DNA of 64,000 nt from Thermovibrio ammonificans HB-1 (lineage in GTDB: Bacteria; Aquificota; Aquificia; Desulfurobacteriales; Desulfurobacteriaceae). The notes beneath the pieces were generated by a model that ran no database searches, was not told the DNA's origin, and saw only the letters and a program-made list of their open reading frames with translations. The stretch is from positions 514,418-578,417 of the forward strand of contig NC_014926.1 of the NCBI RefSeq assembly GCF_000185805.1, given 5' to 3'. Of the stretch, positions 8,628-58,389 are shown one piece after another (position 1 is the first letter of the stretch; the number at the start of each line of letters is the position of its first letter). Made by a program: the position numbers and the translations under genes.

Positions 8628-10949
8628 GTGGCTAAGGATTCGGTGAAGAGCCTTGTAGGTAAGTATGAACGCGGACTCTACCTTCTACTCGGCCTTGTAG
8701 GGCTGGTGGGGCTTTTCTGCATTATCTACATAATGTTCTTCAGGCATCAGATAGAGGATGCGGTATACACCTCCGTTTTGAACCAGTCCAGGACCCAGCT
8801 CGAGAACCAGGTTTCCCAGATAATCTCCCTTATAGAGAGGGAGGAGCAAGACGGTATCAACTACTTCAAGTCGGAAGTAAAACAAGAGGTTGAGAACGCC
8901 TGGGCCGTAGCGCAGGCTATTTACCTTTACGGCAAGGCCCACCACTTTAGAGACTCCACAATTAAAGAGCTCATAAAACAGGTCCTTTCAAAGTACAGTT
9001 ACTTCAACGGTCAGGGTTACATCTTCATCGACAGCGTTAAAGGAACAGTGATTCTCAATCCAAAATTCCCCCAGATTGAGGGGAAGAACTTCTGGAACTG
9101 GAAAGACCTAAAGGGGCAGTTTGTTCACAGGAAGTTCGAGGAGATTGACCTTTACGCTCCCAACAACGAGGGGTTTGTTACCTACTACTGGTATCTGCCC
9201 GGCACGAAAAAGCCCGACGAGAAGATAGCCTTTGTGAAGCTCTTTAAACCCTACAACTGGATTATCGGTGGGGGCGTTTACCGCTCTTACATTAACGACT
9301 GGGTTATGCACCACGTTCTCACCATCTCCAACTCCTTTAACGTCTTTATCCTCGATAACGGAAAGCGCATCCTTAGGGAAAAGGAGTACAAGTTCTTAAA
9401 GGGCCTCACCTTAGACCAGCTTAAAGAGGGCGTTCTGATAAAAACTCCGGAGAAGTTCTACTATCTCAAGTACTACCCGGAGTGGGACTGGATTGTAGGC
9501 GCCTACATTACCGGTAACGAGATACTCCGCAAGGTTTTCTACCTGAAGGAGCAGTTCCTCTCCACAGCCAACAGGATTGTTATATTCCTCACTTTGGGAA
9601 TCTTCGTCTTGGTAGTTATAGTTTCCGGCGGGCTTTACCACTACTACACTAACCTTGTGAACGCCATTAAAGAGCTGGCCGCAAAGCGTAGGGACCTTCT
9701 GAAGATGGCCCGCTCCCTCAGGATTGTTGCTTACAAAGACGAGATAACCGGGCTTGCCAACAGGCGGAAGTTTTTTGAAGACCTGAGGAACCTCGAGGGG
9801 CACAACCTCCACTTTGCCATTGTGAACATTAGGAACTTTAGGGACTTAAACGAGCTCTTCGGCTTTGAGGGGGGTAACAGGATACTTGCCGAGTTTGCCT
9901 CTACCCTCAGGCGGGTTGTTAAGGCAAGGAGTAAGGGGGACTGTAAGCGGTGCAGGGTTTACAGAATCAGGGGGGATAAGTTCGGGGTTCTCGGCTGCGA
10001 CTTTAACGACAGTGGGTTTCTGGACTTCATTAAAAAGGTCATTAAGAACCTGGAGAGCAAGGACTTCAGTTACAACAACGTAAACTTTAAACTGGACGTT
10101 GTGGCCGGTATCTCAAAGAACAAGGACAACATGCTCATAGAGGCGGAGATAGCCGAAGAAGAGGCCAAGAAGCGGGGGCTCGACGCCTTTATGTTCGATG
10201 AAGACCTCAACGTTATATTCAAGCAGCTCGAGGAGAACATAAAAGTAGCAACCCAGCTTAAAAAGGCCCTTGCGGAAGACGGCGTTGTTCCCGTGTTTCA
10301 GCCGATAGTTGACCTTAAAACGGGAGAGCCCGTTAAGTACGAAGCCCTTATGCGTATTAAGGTAGACGGTGAGGTCCTCTCTCCCGGCGTTTTCCTTCCC
10401 GTTGCCAAGAAGATTTCGATTTACAGGCGCCTATCCCGGAAGATGATGGAGAAAGCCTTTGAGGTTGCCAAGGAGAGGGGGGTGAGGATTTCGGTTAACC
10501 TCTCTTCGGAGGACCTTGCAGGCGGCTCTATGGTTAACTGGATACTCACCGCTTTAAAGCAGTACGGAATAGCCGACCGAATCACCTTTGAGGTTGTTGA
10601 AACCGAGGCTTTCAGCGACATAAAGGCCCTTGAGAACTTCTACTTCAAGATAAAGGAGATTGGGGCCTACCTTGCCATAGACGATTTCGGCAGCGGTTAC
10701 TCCAATTTTGAGTACCTGGCCACTGTTAAGCCCGACTTTATAAAAATCGACGGCAGCCTTATTAAGAAGATTCCCCAGTCGGAGGAGGTTGAGAAGCTCA
10801 TTAAGTACATTGTTGCCTACTGTAAAGACCTTAACATAAAGACCGTTGCCGAGTTTATCTCGTCGGAGGAGATTCTGGAGAAGGTTAAGGAGCTGGGCAT
10901 AGACTACGGTCAGGGCTTTTACCTCGGTAAGCCGGTAGAGGAGATATGA
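8628..10949 (+). CDS. membrane Cache sensor with degenerate GGDEF and intact EAL domain
   Basis: A 773-residue signalling protein. A membrane helix near residues 16-38 and a second near 310-335 bracket a periplasmic Cache domain (GQGYIFIDSVKGTVILNPK and IIGGGVYRSYIND). A GGDEF domain follows at about 365-515; its signature is RGDKF instead of GGDEF, so cyclase activity is unlikely. The C-terminal EAL domain (about 530-773) keeps the expected phosphodiesterase residues: YEALMRI, ISVNLS, FEVVETE, IDDFGSGYS, FIKIDGSLI, VAEF and GQGFYLGKP. Predicted role: ligand-controlled cyclic-di-GMP hydrolysis. GTG 8628 has a weak ribosome site; GTG 8643 is an alternative. It overlaps the next gene, so cyclic-di-GMP may act on the polysaccharide cluster behind it. 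Confidence 0.9.
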   Translation: MAKDSVKSLVGKYERGLYLLLGLVGLVGLFCIIYIMFFRHQIEDAVYTSVLNQSRTQLENQVSQIISLIEREEQDGINYFKSEVKQEVENAWAVAQAIYLYGKAHHFRDSTIKELIKQVLSKYSYFNGQGYIFIDSVKGTVILNPKFPQIEGKNFWNWKDLKGQFVHRKFEEIDLYAPNNEGFVTYYWYLPGTKKPDEKIAFVKLFKPYNWIIGGGVYRSYINDWVMHHVLTISNSFNVFILDNGKRILREKEYKFLKGLTLDQLKEGVLIKTPEKFYYLKYYPEWDWIVGAYITGNEILRKVFYLKEQFLSTANRIVIFLTLGIFVLVVIVSGGLYHYYTNLVNAIKELAAKRRDLLKMARSLRIVAYKDEITGLANRRKFFEDLRNLEGHNLHFAIVNIRNFRDLNELFGFEGGNRILAEFASTLRRVVKARSKGDCKRCRVYRIRGDKFGVLGCDFNDSGFLDFIKKVIKNLESKDFSYNNVNFKLDVVAGISKNKDNMLIEAEIAEEEAKKRGLDAFMFDEDLNVIFKQLEENIKVATQLKKALAEDGVVPVFQPIVDLKTGEPVKYEALMRIKVDGEVLSPGVFLPVAKKISIYRRLSRKMMEKAFEVAKERGVRISVNLSSEDLAGGSMVNWILTALKQYGIADRITFEVVETEAFSDIKALENFYFKIKEIGAYLAIDDFGSGYSNFEYLATVKPDFIKIDGSLIKKIPQSEEVEKLIKYIVAYCKDLNIKTVAEFISSEEILEKVKELGIDYGQGFYLGKPVEEI

Positions 10950-11779
10950 TAGGGCCGTTTATAGTAATCGGAATGCACAGGAGCGGAACCTCTCTCGTTA
11001 CCGACCTCCTTGAGAGTTTCGGCGTTTTCATGGGGGCCAACAAGGATTCAAACGCCGAAGCCCTTGCCTTTCAGGAGCTCAACAGGTGGGTTCTCTCTCA
11101 GGTTAACGGCTCTTGGGATTTTCCGGAGGCTTTAAAGTTCCTTCAGGGTAGGCATAAGGCCTTGATTTTAGAGTTTCTGAAGAGGGCTTTGGCCTCTGAG
11201 TGGTTTGCAGAGCTTTTCTTCGGTGGCCGGAGCGGTTTTGAGCGTTGGGGCTGGAAGGACCCGCGGAATACTCTGCTCCTTGAGTTCTGGCTCTCGCTCT
11301 TTCCGGACGCAAAGGTGATTTCGGTGTGCCGCCACCCTTTAAGCGTTGCCCTGAGCCTGCGAAACAGGCAGAGAAGGCTTCTTAAAGAGGTGAGCAGGCG
11401 TTTGAAGTCCCTTGAGGGCTTCTCTCCGGAGTACCTCGGTTTTAAGTTTTTCGGCTCTCCCAGGGTTGAGTCGGTTGTTGAAGGTGCCAAGCTGTGGGCC
11501 CTTTACGAGGAGGAGGCACTCGGGTGGCGGGAGAGGCTCGGAGACAGGTGTCTCTTTGTGAAGTACGAGTCTTTGCTCTTGCAGCCTGAGCGGGAGCTTC
11601 ACCGCCTTGCCTCTTTCGTGGGAGCCCGGGTAACAGAAGAGACCATAGCTACCCTTTCTGAAAAGTTTAATACAGATAGGGTAAAACCCTTTACCGAAAG
11701 CGACGAAGAGCGCTTTTGGGCGGAAGCTCCCGAGCGTGTTATCTCTTTAGCTTCCCGGTTGGGGTACTACAATGGCTAA
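10946..11779 (+). CDS. sulfotransferase family protein
   Basis: The N-terminus FIVIGMHRSGTSLVTDLL is the PAPS 5'-phosphosulfate-binding loop of the sulfotransferase family. A later block (DAKVISVCRHPLSVALSL) matches the 3'-phosphate-binding region with its Arg and Ser. The 277-residue length fits soluble bacterial sulfotransferases. The ATG overlaps the stop of the EAL gene (ATGA), and the 3' end overlaps the triple GT2 by 8 bases. Next to glycosyltransferases and rml genes, the substrate is probably a cell-surface glycan; that is inference. No PAPS synthesis genes are seen in this window. Confidence 0.85.
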   Translation: MIGPFIVIGMHRSGTSLVTDLLESFGVFMGANKDSNAEALAFQELNRWVLSQVNGSWDFPEALKFLQGRHKALILEFLKRALASEWFAELFFGGRSGFERWGWKDPRNTLLLEFWLSLFPDAKVISVCRHPLSVALSLRNRQRRLLKEVSRRLKSLEGFSPEYLGFKFFGSPRVESVVEGAKLWALYEEEALGWRERLGDRCLFVKYESLLLQPERELHRLASFVGARVTEETIATLSEKFNTDRVKPFTESDEERFWAEAPERVISLASRLGYYNG

Positions 11780-50206: not shown

Positions 50207-50929
50207 ATGAACTGGGAGCTTATCACAGTCGTTGTAGCTGCCGTTTTCGGGGCCATCGGCCTTGTTTTCGGCTTCATCATTGCCAAATCCTTGGGGGGAA
50301 GGAAAAAGGAAGAAGAAGAGCGCCTTGCCATTCTTGAGGAGCGCCTCATAGGTGTATCCGAGCGAACCATCTCAATGGCCGAGGAGCTCAAGTCGAAAAT
50401 CAAGGAGCTCCGCGAGGACAAGCTGAAGGATATCCGTCAGGAAATCGAGGCTCTCCAGCTCGAAATCCACAAACTCAAAAAAGAGCTTGCAACCCTGCCC
50501 GTTAGCCTCTCTCCCAGCAGTTACGAAGCCCTTGAAAAGAGCGAGGAGATTTTAAAAGAGATAGAGTTCAACCTTCCCTCCATAGATAACTCCCTCCTGA
50601 CCCAGGTTAAAGACTCCCTTCTTATACTCCGTAACGACGTTCAAAACCTTGCCATAGAGGCTCAGAAGTCTAAGGAGCCTGCTGTTGACCCTGTCTTCTT
50701 AAAGGACCTTTTGGATACTGTTGAGTCGGCAGTTTCCATCTCGAGGAACATAAACGCCTCCCTTGTGAAAGACGAACTTCTCGCCCTTGCCCACTCTATA
50801 AAGCTCGACGACGGCTCGGAACTGACAAAGGACTTAGACGCTCAAGCCCTTAATGCCAAGGAGCTTGTGGTTTTACTTGAAGAACTGAAAGAGCGCATCA
50901 AAAAAGAGCTGGAAGGAGTAGCCAGATGA
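50207..50929 (+). CDS. membrane-anchored coiled-coil protein
   Basis: I do not recognise the family. The 240-residue protein has one N-terminal membrane helix (about 7-28, VVVAAVFGAIGLVFGFIIA), followed by a basic patch (GGRKKEEEERL) and a long coiled coil (about 32-100). Further amphipathic helices run to the end. N-out/C-in topology is expected from the basic patch after the helix. It overlaps the next gene, a response regulator, by 4 bases, so the two probably act together, perhaps as a scaffold and signal protein. Confidence 0.65.
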   Translation: MNWELITVVVAAVFGAIGLVFGFIIAKSLGGRKKEEEERLAILEERLIGVSERTISMAEELKSKIKELREDKLKDIRQEIEALQLEIHKLKKELATLPVSLSPSSYEALEKSEEILKEIEFNLPSIDNSLLTQVKDSLLILRNDVQNLAIEAQKSKEPAVDPVFLKDLLDTVESAVSISRNINASLVKDELLALAHSIKLDDGSELTKDLDAQALNAKELVVLLEELKERIKKELEGVAR

Positions 50930-51642
50930 GGGTAGTCTACGGCGACGACAAAAAAACCTGGCACGAACTTTTCGATAAAGTCCTCTCTTTACGGGGTATA
51001 GAGGTTGTCCACGCCTACACGCCCAAAGAGGTTATAAACCTGACCGTAGAGAAGAAGCCCGACGTTGTGATACTCGACGTTACCCTCTCCCACGGCACTG
51101 CCTATGAGGTTATAGAGAAGGTCAAAGACCGGGGCGTTCCCGTTGTGGTTATAGGCCACCGTGCAGAGGGGTTCGACCCCGAAAAGGCCCTCTCTTTAGG
51201 GGCGTCTGCCGTTCTCGAGAAGCCCTTCACGGTGGAAGAGCTTGTTGAGCTTCTGAGGAACATAAAGACCCACAAGCCTCAGCTTGAGGAGAAGCTCGAA
51301 ATTGTTGCTCCCTCCGCCGGCGAGATGGTAGAGATTCCGGTTATTGAGGAGCCCCAGGAGGAGCTTCAAGTTCTGCCCGTTGAAGAACACGTTGAAACCA
51401 TAGAGCTTGAACCGGTTGAGCTTCAGCCGGAACCCGTTGAAGAGCCAGTTAAACCGCAATCTACGGAGTCTAAGGTAGTGGAGGAGGCTAAGAAGGAGAT
51501 TGCCAAGAAGGTAGAGGCAGGTCTGCCCGAGGAGAAAGTTGAGCAGATAATAAGGGAAATAGCCTGGGAAGTAATACCCGAAATAGCCGAGAAGGTAATA
51601 AGGGAAGAGGTAGAGAAGCTCATAAAGAGCAGGCTCGCCTGA
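50926..51642 (+). CDS. response regulator receiver protein with C-terminal helical domain
   Basis: A 238-residue protein. The receiver domain (1-~118) has VVYGDDKKTWHELF (acidic pair), phosphoacceptor Asp in PDVVILDVTL and the Lys in AVLEKPFTVEEL. A low-complexity acidic linker (about 130-185) is rich in Pro-Val-Glu. A C-terminal helical block (EEKVEQIIREIAWEVIPEIAEKVIREEVEKL) resembles the tail of some delta-proteobacterial response regulators, where it serves protein contacts. There is no DNA-binding domain. It is coupled to the upstream coiled-coil membrane protein; no kinase is nearby. Confidence 0.82.
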   Translation: MRVVYGDDKKTWHELFDKVLSLRGIEVVHAYTPKEVINLTVEKKPDVVILDVTLSHGTAYEVIEKVKDRGVPVVVIGHRAEGFDPEKALSLGASAVLEKPFTVEELVELLRNIKTHKPQLEEKLEIVAPSAGEMVEIPVIEEPQEELQVLPVEEHVETIELEPVELQPEPVEEPVKPQSTESKVVEEAKKEIAKKVEAGLPEEKVEQIIREIAWEVIPEIAEKVIREEVEKLIKSRLA

Positions 51643-54698: not shown

Positions 54699-55674
54699 AG
54701 TCCTTCCCCAAAGGGAACAGCTCGTAAAGGAGCTAACAGACCAGGTAAAAGAAGACCTCAAGAACTACTTTAAAGACCGAGACTACGGCGTTATAGCGGT
54801 AACCAGGGAAGACGCTCTCAGGGCCTTCATTGTGAAAACAACCAACCTCTGTGAGATAGCGCGCCTCAGACATAAACTCTCTCCTATGGCAACGGCGGTT
54901 CTCGGCCGTGCCTTAACAGGAGCGATTCTGTTAACCTCTCTCCTCAAACACGGGACCAACCAGAGGGTACTCCTCAGAATAGAGGGAGATGGCCCTATAG
55001 GCCTTGTTGTAGCGGAGGCGAATGCCAAGGGAGAGGTAAGAGGGTTTGTCCAGAACCCGAACGTAGAAACCTTCATAAAAGAGGAGAACGGCAGGAAGAA
55101 GTTCGATATAGCCAAAGCGGTCGGTAAAGGCACCCTGACCGTTGTTAAAGACCTCGGCTTTGGAACTCCCTACGAGAGCTCCGTTCCCCTTGTTTCCGGA
55201 GAGATAGCCCAAGACATTGCCTACTACCTGCTTAAATCGGAACAGATTCCCTCTGCTGTGGCTATAGGCGTTCTTGTGGGTGAAGACGGAAAAGTGGAAG
55301 CTGCCGGAGGTTTCCTTGCCCAACCTCTTCCCGGCGCTTCCGAGTCTGCTGTAGAGAAGCTCGAGAAAAACGTTACCTCTTTACCCCCTGTAAGCACCCT
55401 TATAAAAGAGGGTAAAAGGCCCGAAGAGATTGCAGAACTTATATTCAAAGGCTTTACTACTGAACTGCTTGCCCTTAAAGAGCTCTCTTTCCGCTGTAGG
55501 TGTAGTAAGGAAGTTGCCAAGGGCGGTATAGTTGCAATGCCGGAAGAGGAGATAAAATCCCTGATTCAGGAAGGCGGTGCCTCCGTTAAGTGCAAATTCT
55601 GCGGTGAGGAGTATCACTTCTCCAAAGAAGAGCTTGAGGAGATACTTAAAGAGAAACAGCAGGGGAACAACTGA
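54670..55674 (+). CDS. hslO: redox chaperone Hsp33
   Basis: Hsp33 is a holdase activated by oxidation. The core has KLSPMATAVLGRALTGAILLTSLLK, RIEGDGPIGLVVAEANAKGEVRGFVQNP, and the C-terminal zinc switch FRCRCSKEVAKGG (C-x-C) and VKCKFCGEEYHF (C-x2-C), all four Cys kept. It is longer than usual (334 against about 290) because of an N-terminal extension of about 35 charged residues (KVLPQREQLVKELTDQVKED). ATG with GGAGGGTAG upstream. Confidence 0.94.
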   Translation: MEKKEQKNLKVLPQREQLVKELTDQVKEDLKNYFKDRDYGVIAVTREDALRAFIVKTTNLCEIARLRHKLSPMATAVLGRALTGAILLTSLLKHGTNQRVLLRIEGDGPIGLVVAEANAKGEVRGFVQNPNVETFIKEENGRKKFDIAKAVGKGTLTVVKDLGFGTPYESSVPLVSGEIAQDIAYYLLKSEQIPSAVAIGVLVGEDGKVEAAGGFLAQPLPGASESAVEKLEKNVTSLPPVSTLIKEGKRPEEIAELIFKGFTTELLALKELSFRCRCSKEVAKGGIVAMPEEEIKSLIQEGGASVKCKFCGEEYHFSKEELEEILKEKQQGNN

Positions 55675-56195
55675 TGGCTTTAGCGTCCCTTTACACGGTG
55701 GGAGTAGCCCTTCCCTTTGTAGAAGAAGAAGCCGAGAAGGTCCTTAAGGAAAAGTTTAACCTGAGCCCCCGTTTCGAGGGGGCCTTGCCTCCCGATTCTA
55801 CCGGAGCCAGAGGCTCTCAGCTTCTTGCCGAGGTTCAGCTTCAGCATGCCCTTGCCCTAAAACCTTCCGACTCTCTCTTTGTCGTTGTTTTAACGCCTTA
55901 CGACCTCTACTCCAATGGCTTAAACTTCGTTTTTGGGGTTGCTTACCCTTTTAAAGGCTGCATAGTCTCGTATGCACGTTTAATCTCTGAAGACGACAGC
56001 CTCTTCCTTTCCCGTTTCAGGAAAGAACTGACCCATGAAATGGGGCATGTTTTCGGTCTGCCTCACTGTCCGAATCCCAGCTGTGTTATGCACTTTTCAA
56101 ATAGCTTGGCAGATACCGACGCTAAAAGCGAAAATTTTTGCCAGCTCTGCTCAGAAAAGCTCCGTAGAGTCATGGTAGAACTCGGTCTAATTTGA
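55674..56195 (+). CDS. archaemetzincin-family zinc metalloprotease
   Basis: A 173-residue putative metalloprotease. The metzincin motif HEMGHVFGLPHC is followed by PNPSCVMHFSNSLADTD and FCQLC, giving the archaemetzincin pattern of HExxH, a third His, four cysteines for a second zinc, and the Met of the Met-turn. The family is widespread in archaea and rare in bacteria. ATG shares a base with the hslO stop. It ends the plus-strand operon just before the CRISPR leader. Physiological substrate unknown. Confidence 0.9.
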   Translation: MALASLYTVGVALPFVEEEAEKVLKEKFNLSPRFEGALPPDSTGARGSQLLAEVQLQHALALKPSDSLFVVVLTPYDLYSNGLNFVFGVAYPFKGCIVSYARLISEDDSLFLSRFRKELTHEMGHVFGLPHCPNPSCVMHFSNSLADTDAKSENFCQLCSEKLRRVMVELGLI

Positions 56196-57567: not shown

Positions 57568-58389
57568 ATGAAGCTGTTTAGCCGGATTCGGGTTGTTTAT
57601 ACTAAGGCTTTCTCTTCACAGTTTGGCCCGATATTTTCTGATTGGCCTTCTATTGTTTTGCTTTTTTTTATATTTCTCTTGCTTTCACTGATAACAGGTT
57701 GGATACCCGACGGCTTAACTGCCCTTTTTGAAGGTGAAAGGTTAAAAGGTCTCTTTATGCTCGGGGGCTCTTGTTCCATATTGCTTTTCCTTCTTGTTGC
57801 TGCCAAGTATCTTTTCGTTAACGTGAGGTTCTACGCGGTAGAGCGAACGCCTCTGAAGAGAAAAGCACTGATTCTTTTCTTAAGCGTTCCGGGTAAAGGG
57901 GGAAATTCCCGAGAACTTTTGGATGCCCTAAGAAAGGCCGAGACGATTGAAGAGAAACTGGAGTTAGTAAACGGTTCATTTATTCGAAGCTGGAGAATGC
58001 CCTTTGAAGCTATGAAGTTTCATTTACCGGAGCTTCGTTCCGTTGTTGTTATATCTTCTTTGGAGAGCTCTAATTATTACCCGCTCTTCCTTAAAGTAGC
58101 TAAGTTGCTTTTCCCCGAGTCCCAGATTCAGTTTAAAGAAATTCCCATAACTTCTTTTGAGAGCTTCAACCAAGTTCAGGAAGCAGTAGAGAAGGCTTAC
58201 TCTTTTCTAAAAGAACAGGGTTTTAGAGAAAAAGAGGTCATTCTTGATGTAACCGGTGGCAAGAAGATAGTGTCTATAGTAGGAGCTCTACTCTCCTTGC
58301 AGCCTTTTCGGGAGTTCCAATACGTTTCTACAGAACAGGGTAGTTACTCTGTGAAGTCTTACGACTTAGAGGCCCTTAAAGATGAATAA
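57568..58389 (+). CDS. two-helix membrane protein with C-terminal CARF-like domain
   Basis: A 273-residue protein 86 bases beyond the last repeat. Two membrane helices lie at about 27-46 (PSIVLLFFIFLLLSLITGWI) and 62-84 (LFMLGGSCSILLFLLVAAKYL), with a short loop between. Basic residues before helix 1 and after helix 2 place both ends in the cytoplasm. The soluble part (about 97-268) has a Rossmann-like pattern: KALILFLSVPGKGGNS at the start and VILDVTGGKKIVSIVGALLSL near residues 224-244. The DxTGGK-type motif is the ring-nucleotide signature of CARF domains in Csm6, Csx1 and relatives. Predicted role: cyclic-oligoadenylate-sensing membrane effector. Base composition is more AT-rich than its neighbours. 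The 3' end overlaps the convergent phosphorylase gene by 14 bases. Confidence 0.8.
   Translation: MKLFSRIRVVYTKAFSSQFGPIFSDWPSIVLLFFIFLLLSLITGWIPDGLTALFEGERLKGLFMLGGSCSILLFLLVAAKYLFVNVRFYAVERTPLKRKALILFLSVPGKGGNSRELLDALRKAETIEEKLELVNGSFIRSWRMPFEAMKFHLPELRSVVVISSLESSNYYPLFLKVAKLLFPESQIQFKEIPITSFESFNQVQEAVEKAYSFLKEQGFREKEVILDVTGGKKIVSIVGALLSLQPFREFQYVSTEQGSYSVKSYDLEALKDE

Follow-up and report, generated by a model that had tools for sequence, protein, structure and literature searches.

In Myxococcus xanthus, RomR (MXAN_4461) is described as the base scaffold for polar MglA, MglB and RomX, and one account states its own route to the pole to be unknown (PMC10329633). Keilberg et al. 2012 (PMC3441718) describe its C-terminal region, RomR-C, as rich in Glu and as carrying an invariant Trp and Pro, with a linker that is not conserved between it and the receiver. 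In Bdellovibrio bacteriovorus, whose RomR has a RomR tail as well, the Asp mutants D55A and D55E are reported to localise as wild type, and the phosphorylation of RomR is disputed in print (PMC6428892); partners given for this RomR include uncharacterised coiled-coil and TPR proteins (PMC11025332). RomR is also already known in the lineage studied here: ‘Aquificales’ stand among the RomR carriers in a figure legend of 2012, with neither Thermovibrio nor Desulfurobacterium named in the main text (PMC3441718).

What is new here is PP, a membrane partner gene of romR, our name for a membrane-anchored helical partner protein. The two genes lie in a 64,000-nt window (the whole stretch of DNA that was analysed; G000:C2:514418-578417) of the Thermovibrio ammonificans HB-1 genome, which comprises 1,759,526 bases in two contigs. 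The regulator resembles M. xanthus RomR and its homologues in having a receiver, a variable disordered linker and a helical RomR-C that is rich in Glu and has the invariant Trp and Pro, and MglA, MglB and PilT-family proteins are likewise encoded in the Thermovibrio genome. It differs from M. xanthus RomR in that romR of its family, the Desulfurobacteriaceae, is paired with a membrane protein gene, that 5/19 orthologues are without the phospho-acceptor Asp, and that it is shorter, as judged by published description (238 aa against 420; PMC3441718). In the parts of the RomR literature available to us, we met no description of a membrane partner and altered docking face of the kind reported below.

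The regulator and its RomR-type tail

The regulator gene (50926..51642; all features of the pair are on the forward strand) encodes 238 aa in which a receiver, an acidic Pro-Val-Glu linker and a helical tail are all present, as the preliminary description had it. The receiver (50926..51270) matches PF00072 over residues 7–110 (E 5.1e-16; 59.3 bits, cut-off 30.2), is modelled by AlphaFold2 with a pLDDT of about 96, and has D7, D8, D51 and K99, with Gly at the Ser/Thr switch position (G77); the solved structures matched by the regulator are receivers. The linker (51286..51525) is unconserved in the alignment and mostly disordered, with pLDDT mostly below 50; in the protein as a whole, residues 121–189 and 193–200 fall below that value. 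Three tail helices are predicted, at residues 181–196, 202–215 and 218–237, and the RomR-C tail itself (51529..51636; ...IIREIAWEVIPEIAEKVIREEVEKLIKSRLA) carries W214, P218 and E222. No DNA-binding domain is among the Pfam matches up to E 10, which agrees with the earlier claim that the regulator has none.

A profile made from the family tails matches 20/22 Desulfurobacteriaceae genomes and 0/114 other Aquificota genomes, the two misses being 83% and 62% complete. Over wider genome contigs, the best 80 of at least 350 loci matched by this profile include 72 outside the family, from records named Deltaproteobacteria, Myxococcales, Bdellovibrionales, Acidobacteria, Nitrospirota and others, and 56 of these 72 have a receiver at E ≤ 1e-4. 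A second profile, built from outgroup tails only (64 of the 72 outside tails, those with the Trp, again from the best 80 of at least 350 loci), matches a single one of the 757 window ORFs, the regulator (E 1.5e-12), and all 19 family orthologues (E 1.7e-15 to 1.9e-11). W214 and P218 are invariant in those 19. By spacing, W214 and E222 correspond to the published positions W394 and E402 of M. xanthus RomR; MglC binding in vitro requires W394, and E402A is not among the binding-loss variants given (PMC12719032). Judged by its sequence, the regulator is a member of the RomR family. The preliminary description had guessed at a polarity or motility scaffold rather than a gene regulator, and this guess is supported, because RomR is a known polarity scaffold of the MglA/MglB system in Myxococcus.

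In a receiver tree of the family and the 56 outside rows with E ≤ 1e-4 (from the best 80 of at least 350 loci), the family forms its own clade (100/99), and the fork to 55 of the 56 outside rows is weakly supported (27/22). For site comparisons, 59 outside proteins were aligned, 11 of the 72 outside loci (from the best 80 of at least 350) having been excluded because they were truncated or short and a further 2 because they gave no receiver hit. One genome holds two copies, L012 and L031, the partner of L012 having a shortened start; alignment A1 includes L012 and omits L031, A2 includes L031 and omits L012, and A3 contains 12 of the 19 tails.

Two features of the outside loci were seen in passing. 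Six Syntrophales or other Deltaproteobacteria records (L124, L128, L140, L141, L143 and L145) hold short proteins with a RomR-C-like tail that is without the Trp; five of them are under 130 aa, and the sixth, L128, has a receiver match of only E 0.16. Among 66 loci between L075 and L146, about 20 have a putative valyl-tRNA synthetase gene after romR, recognised by eye from a PPPNVTGSLHMGHAL-like stretch that we take to be a valyl-tRNA synthetase motif.

PP, the membrane protein gene overlapping romR

PP (50207..50929; 240 aa) and romR overlap by the 4 bases claimed earlier, ATGA. In all 20 pairs examined (19 genomes, one of them with two copies), PP is the gene immediately upstream of romR and overlaps it, by 4 bases in 13 pairs, 20 bases in one and 23 bases in six. 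A lack of adjacency in relatives had been set beforehand as grounds for refutation and was not seen: PP precedes romR in 19/19 checkable genomes, all Desulfurobacteriaceae. PP orthologues were found in 19 of the 22 family genomes, including 16/16 with a completeness of 90% or more and a contamination of 5% or less. The three others are G008, where a contig start cuts romR, and G015 and G017, where neither gene was found. The order FabF-Rnc-Maf-PP-RomR-IspF-FabZ-LpxA holds in 13 of 14 laid-out genomes, one with Rnc in two pieces, and in the 14th the contig starts at PP and so cuts the locus just before it (gene names were assigned by similarity to window ORFs, themselves named by reading translations). 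The claimed absence of an adjacent kinase stands as well: we recognise no kinase gene between 43934 and 56195, where the 13 other genes were named from their translations and 3 of them were family-scanned, and CheA, the only kinase type searched for, is encoded elsewhere in the genome, away from the pair.

Two other genes of the window may be recorded here. Downstream in the same gene run, 55674-56195 (+) encodes a Peptidase_M54 protein (E 8.7e-26), presumably archaemetzincin-type. Beyond it, 57568-58389 (+) encodes a 273-aa protein with two hydrophobic stretches (by eye), no Pfam match up to E 0.01 and a DVTGGKK motif that, to us, recalls CARF-type sensors.

Among 136 Aquificota genomes, PP is matched at E ≤ 1e-70 in the 19 family genomes, and no strong match was found outside them or apart from romR. 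A wider presence in Aquificota was rejected: 105/136 genomes match at a loose E ≤ 1, and the best match outside the 19, which is also the next best overall (E 1.5e-7), was taken as long-helix background. At the 72 romR-type loci outside Desulfurobacteriaceae (from the best 80 of at least 350), six of which have romR cut at its start, the PP profile has no match, and RomR therefore does not generally need PP. The search for PP beside romR in other phyla likewise returned the family alone, with profile matches at 7 of the 80 loci (the best 80 of at least 350), all Desulfurobacteriaceae; the eighth Desulfurobacteriaceae locus of these 80, L073, starts inside or near romR.

The first protein had been described as membrane-tethered with a long coiled coil. 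The tether is borne out by a single hydrophobic N-terminal segment in 19/19 orthologues, beginning at residue 3–8; in the window protein it spans residues 3–28 (50213..50290) and is helical in the model. Across the 19 orthologues, no Lys or Arg precedes this segment and 1–5 fall in the 15 residues after it, so that by the positive-inside rule PP is predicted to lie N-out/C-in. The coiled coil survives in part. AlphaFold2 predicts a 63-residue amphipathic helix (residues 34–96; 50306..50494), but a heptad coiled coil as such is unsupported: the heptad period (3.5) lacks significance both in the window protein (P = 0.29) and in the alignment average (P = 0.106), and reaches P < 0.05 in only 4/19 orthologues. 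The alignment-averaged period is about 3.65, near an 11-residue (hendecad) repeat, and is reached by 0/2000 shuffles at 3.6 and 0/2000 at 3.67. The C-terminal region (residues 103–239; 50513..50923) is helical in the model and holds the invariant residues P124, D136, I140, R142, N183, K188, D211 and K218.

The PP model is weak (pTM 0.40), and Foldseek gave no PDB match with E ≤ 0.001, the rows listed being mostly other long-helix proteins. Assignment to any Pfam or NCBIfam family was rejected, as no curated cut-off was reached by the window protein (best DUF6779, 19.3 bits against 28.1) or by the eight orthologues scanned with scores. The closest likeness met was to DUF948 (PF06103), a membrane helix followed by a long helix, which 9/19 PP orthologues match at E ≤ 0.01, always within residues 8–96 (best E 1.1e-6, corresponding to an estimated 29 bits or so). 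PP differs from it in that only 3/8 score-scanned orthologues match, none of them reaching the curated cut-off of 37.2 bits (best 28.2), and the window protein has no DUF948 match up to E 10.

Since gene order ties it to romR, PP, as a membrane protein, suggests itself as an anchor. On balance we lean towards reading romR as the scaffold of an MglA/MglB polarity module and PP as a lineage-specific inner-membrane protein that works with RomR, most likely by anchoring it, and PP is a good candidate for holding the RomR scaffold at the membrane. A romR locked to one membrane-protein gene would also offer a definite candidate, and a compact system for tests, to the question of how RomR is localised. 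The pair does lie between maf and ispF, in a stable housekeeping locus whose gene order could by itself keep the two genes together, and the pairing could thus be inherited gene order; the two genes would then be co-transcribed neighbours whose products make no contact, with PP in an unrelated envelope role. We consider this improbable, because overlap and order are kept across all seven genera while the genes at the locus edges vary, and because PP has no strong match apart from romR in the 136 genomes.

The receiver and its helix alpha-1 face

The phospho-acceptor D51 is present in the window protein and is Asn in 5/19 orthologues (all four of genus g4, plus G014), the same five having lost the second acidic residue. 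CheA (PF02895) was found in all five of these genomes, and loss of CheA was therefore rejected as the cause of the Asp loss; CheA was missed in 4/22 genomes, among them G021, which is 99% complete and retains the Asp. Because five relatives without the Asp still have CheA, the family is a natural experiment on the need of RomR for phosphorylation. Gly replaces the Ser/Thr switch residue in 19/19 family receivers, compared with Gly in 9 and Ser or Thr in 23 of the 59 aligned outside proteins (from the best 80 of at least 350 loci).

The signature K9-K10-T11-W12-H13 (50950..50964) lies in helix alpha-1, the kinase-docking helix, and K9, W12 and H13 are invariant in 19/19 family RomRs, including the five without Asp51. 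Outside RomRs differ here: at the same three sites, the 59 aligned RomR-type proteins (from the best 80 of at least 350 loci) mostly have Ser (56), Ile (49) and Gln (46), with Lys in 0/59, Trp in 0/59 and His in 2/59. Counted from the acidic pair, K9, T11 and W12 fall at D13, R15 and L16 in a published list of OmpR kinase-specificity sites, where Bdellovibrio RomR has Ser, Thr and Ile (PMC6428892); those three residues are also found in most of the outside set (from the best 80 of at least 350 loci). Alpha-1 sites that stay fixed while the phosphorylation site is lost would be expected if that face binds a constant protein. The invariant Lys-Trp-His and the Asp loss together hint at such a fixed protein partner, for which PP would be the obvious candidate; alternatively, W12 may have a buried structural role.

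The bolder form of the anchor reading makes PP a dedicated membrane receptor for RomR and turns the receiver from a phosphorylation switch into a PP docking module, via the Lys-Trp-His face, so that polarity would be set by a membrane protein and not by a kinase. We put this forward tentatively and regard it as rather doubtful. An argument against anchoring through the receiver comes from M. xanthus, where the tail or the linker of RomR can each reach the pole by itself but the receiver cannot (PMC3441718, PMC10329633), although we know of no PP in that species.

The alpha-1 sites also bear on the idea that PP is a membrane sensor that takes over the role of a histidine kinase by passing a signal to the receiver, with RomR relaying to MglA. 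One membrane helix followed by long cytoplasmic helices is a signalling layout, and K9 and W12, which by our own counting coincide with D13 and L16 among the OmpR kinase-specificity sites (PMC6428892), are both changed and fixed here. PP would nonetheless make an unlikely sensor, as it has no recognisable sensing domain and, with its segment starting so near the N terminus in every orthologue, few residues outside the membrane.

MglA, MglB and PilT-family proteins in the genome

The genome of the window encodes an MglA and an MglB, each of which matches PDB chains of its own name from end to end (E 8.8e-76 for MglA, E 1.7e-25 for MglB); we take these chains to be from M. xanthus. Both proteins are below curated NCBIfam cut-offs (59.5 against 200 bits for the MglB model, 26.6 against 42.5 for small_GTP). 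The genes are neighbours in an mglB-mglA operon (L172), and the same pair was seen by eye in 4/4 other genomes read. Roadblock (PF03259) matches occur in 22/22 family genomes, with five in the genome of the window at E ≤ 0.001, and two further roadblock proteins among those five matched no PDB chain named MglC. PilT-family proteins over the cut-off are likewise found in 22/22 family genomes, and the genome of the window has two such genes. Our literature search found no paper that treats Thermovibrio ammonificans together with MglA.

As an anchor, PP would be inserted in the inner membrane, extend its helices into the cytoplasm and hold RomR at the membrane, perhaps via the receiver domain. 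The RomR tail would gather a roadblock protein, either MglB or one resembling MglC, and in this way control the sites of action of MglA-GTP and the type IV pilus machinery. The scheme draws support from the assignment to the RomR family, from the conservation of the gene pair and from the presence of MglA, MglB and PilT-family proteins. It would further entail direct binding between PP and RomR, with the receiver as a possible contact face, as well as a polar location and a pilus output. That PP instead fills the function of RomX, loading MglA with GTP together with RomR as a co-exchange factor, deserves little credence: RomX alone has exchange activity in M. xanthus and RomR/RomX has more (PMC7332107, PMC10329633), but PP is membrane-anchored and helical and has no family or fold match to an exchange factor.

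Further genes of these types lie elsewhere. A second MglA-like GTPase, with PF00025 over its cut-off, is encoded at L171:9204-9809 (-), near a roadblock protein at 10713-11066 (-), both apart from the mglBA operon. In L194, L196, L197 and L198 (genera g3 and g4), a gene for a PilT/PilB-like ATPase lies second upstream from fabF, on the opposite strand and about 4 kb from the romR pair; a similar gene lies about 100 kb from the pair in the genome of the window.
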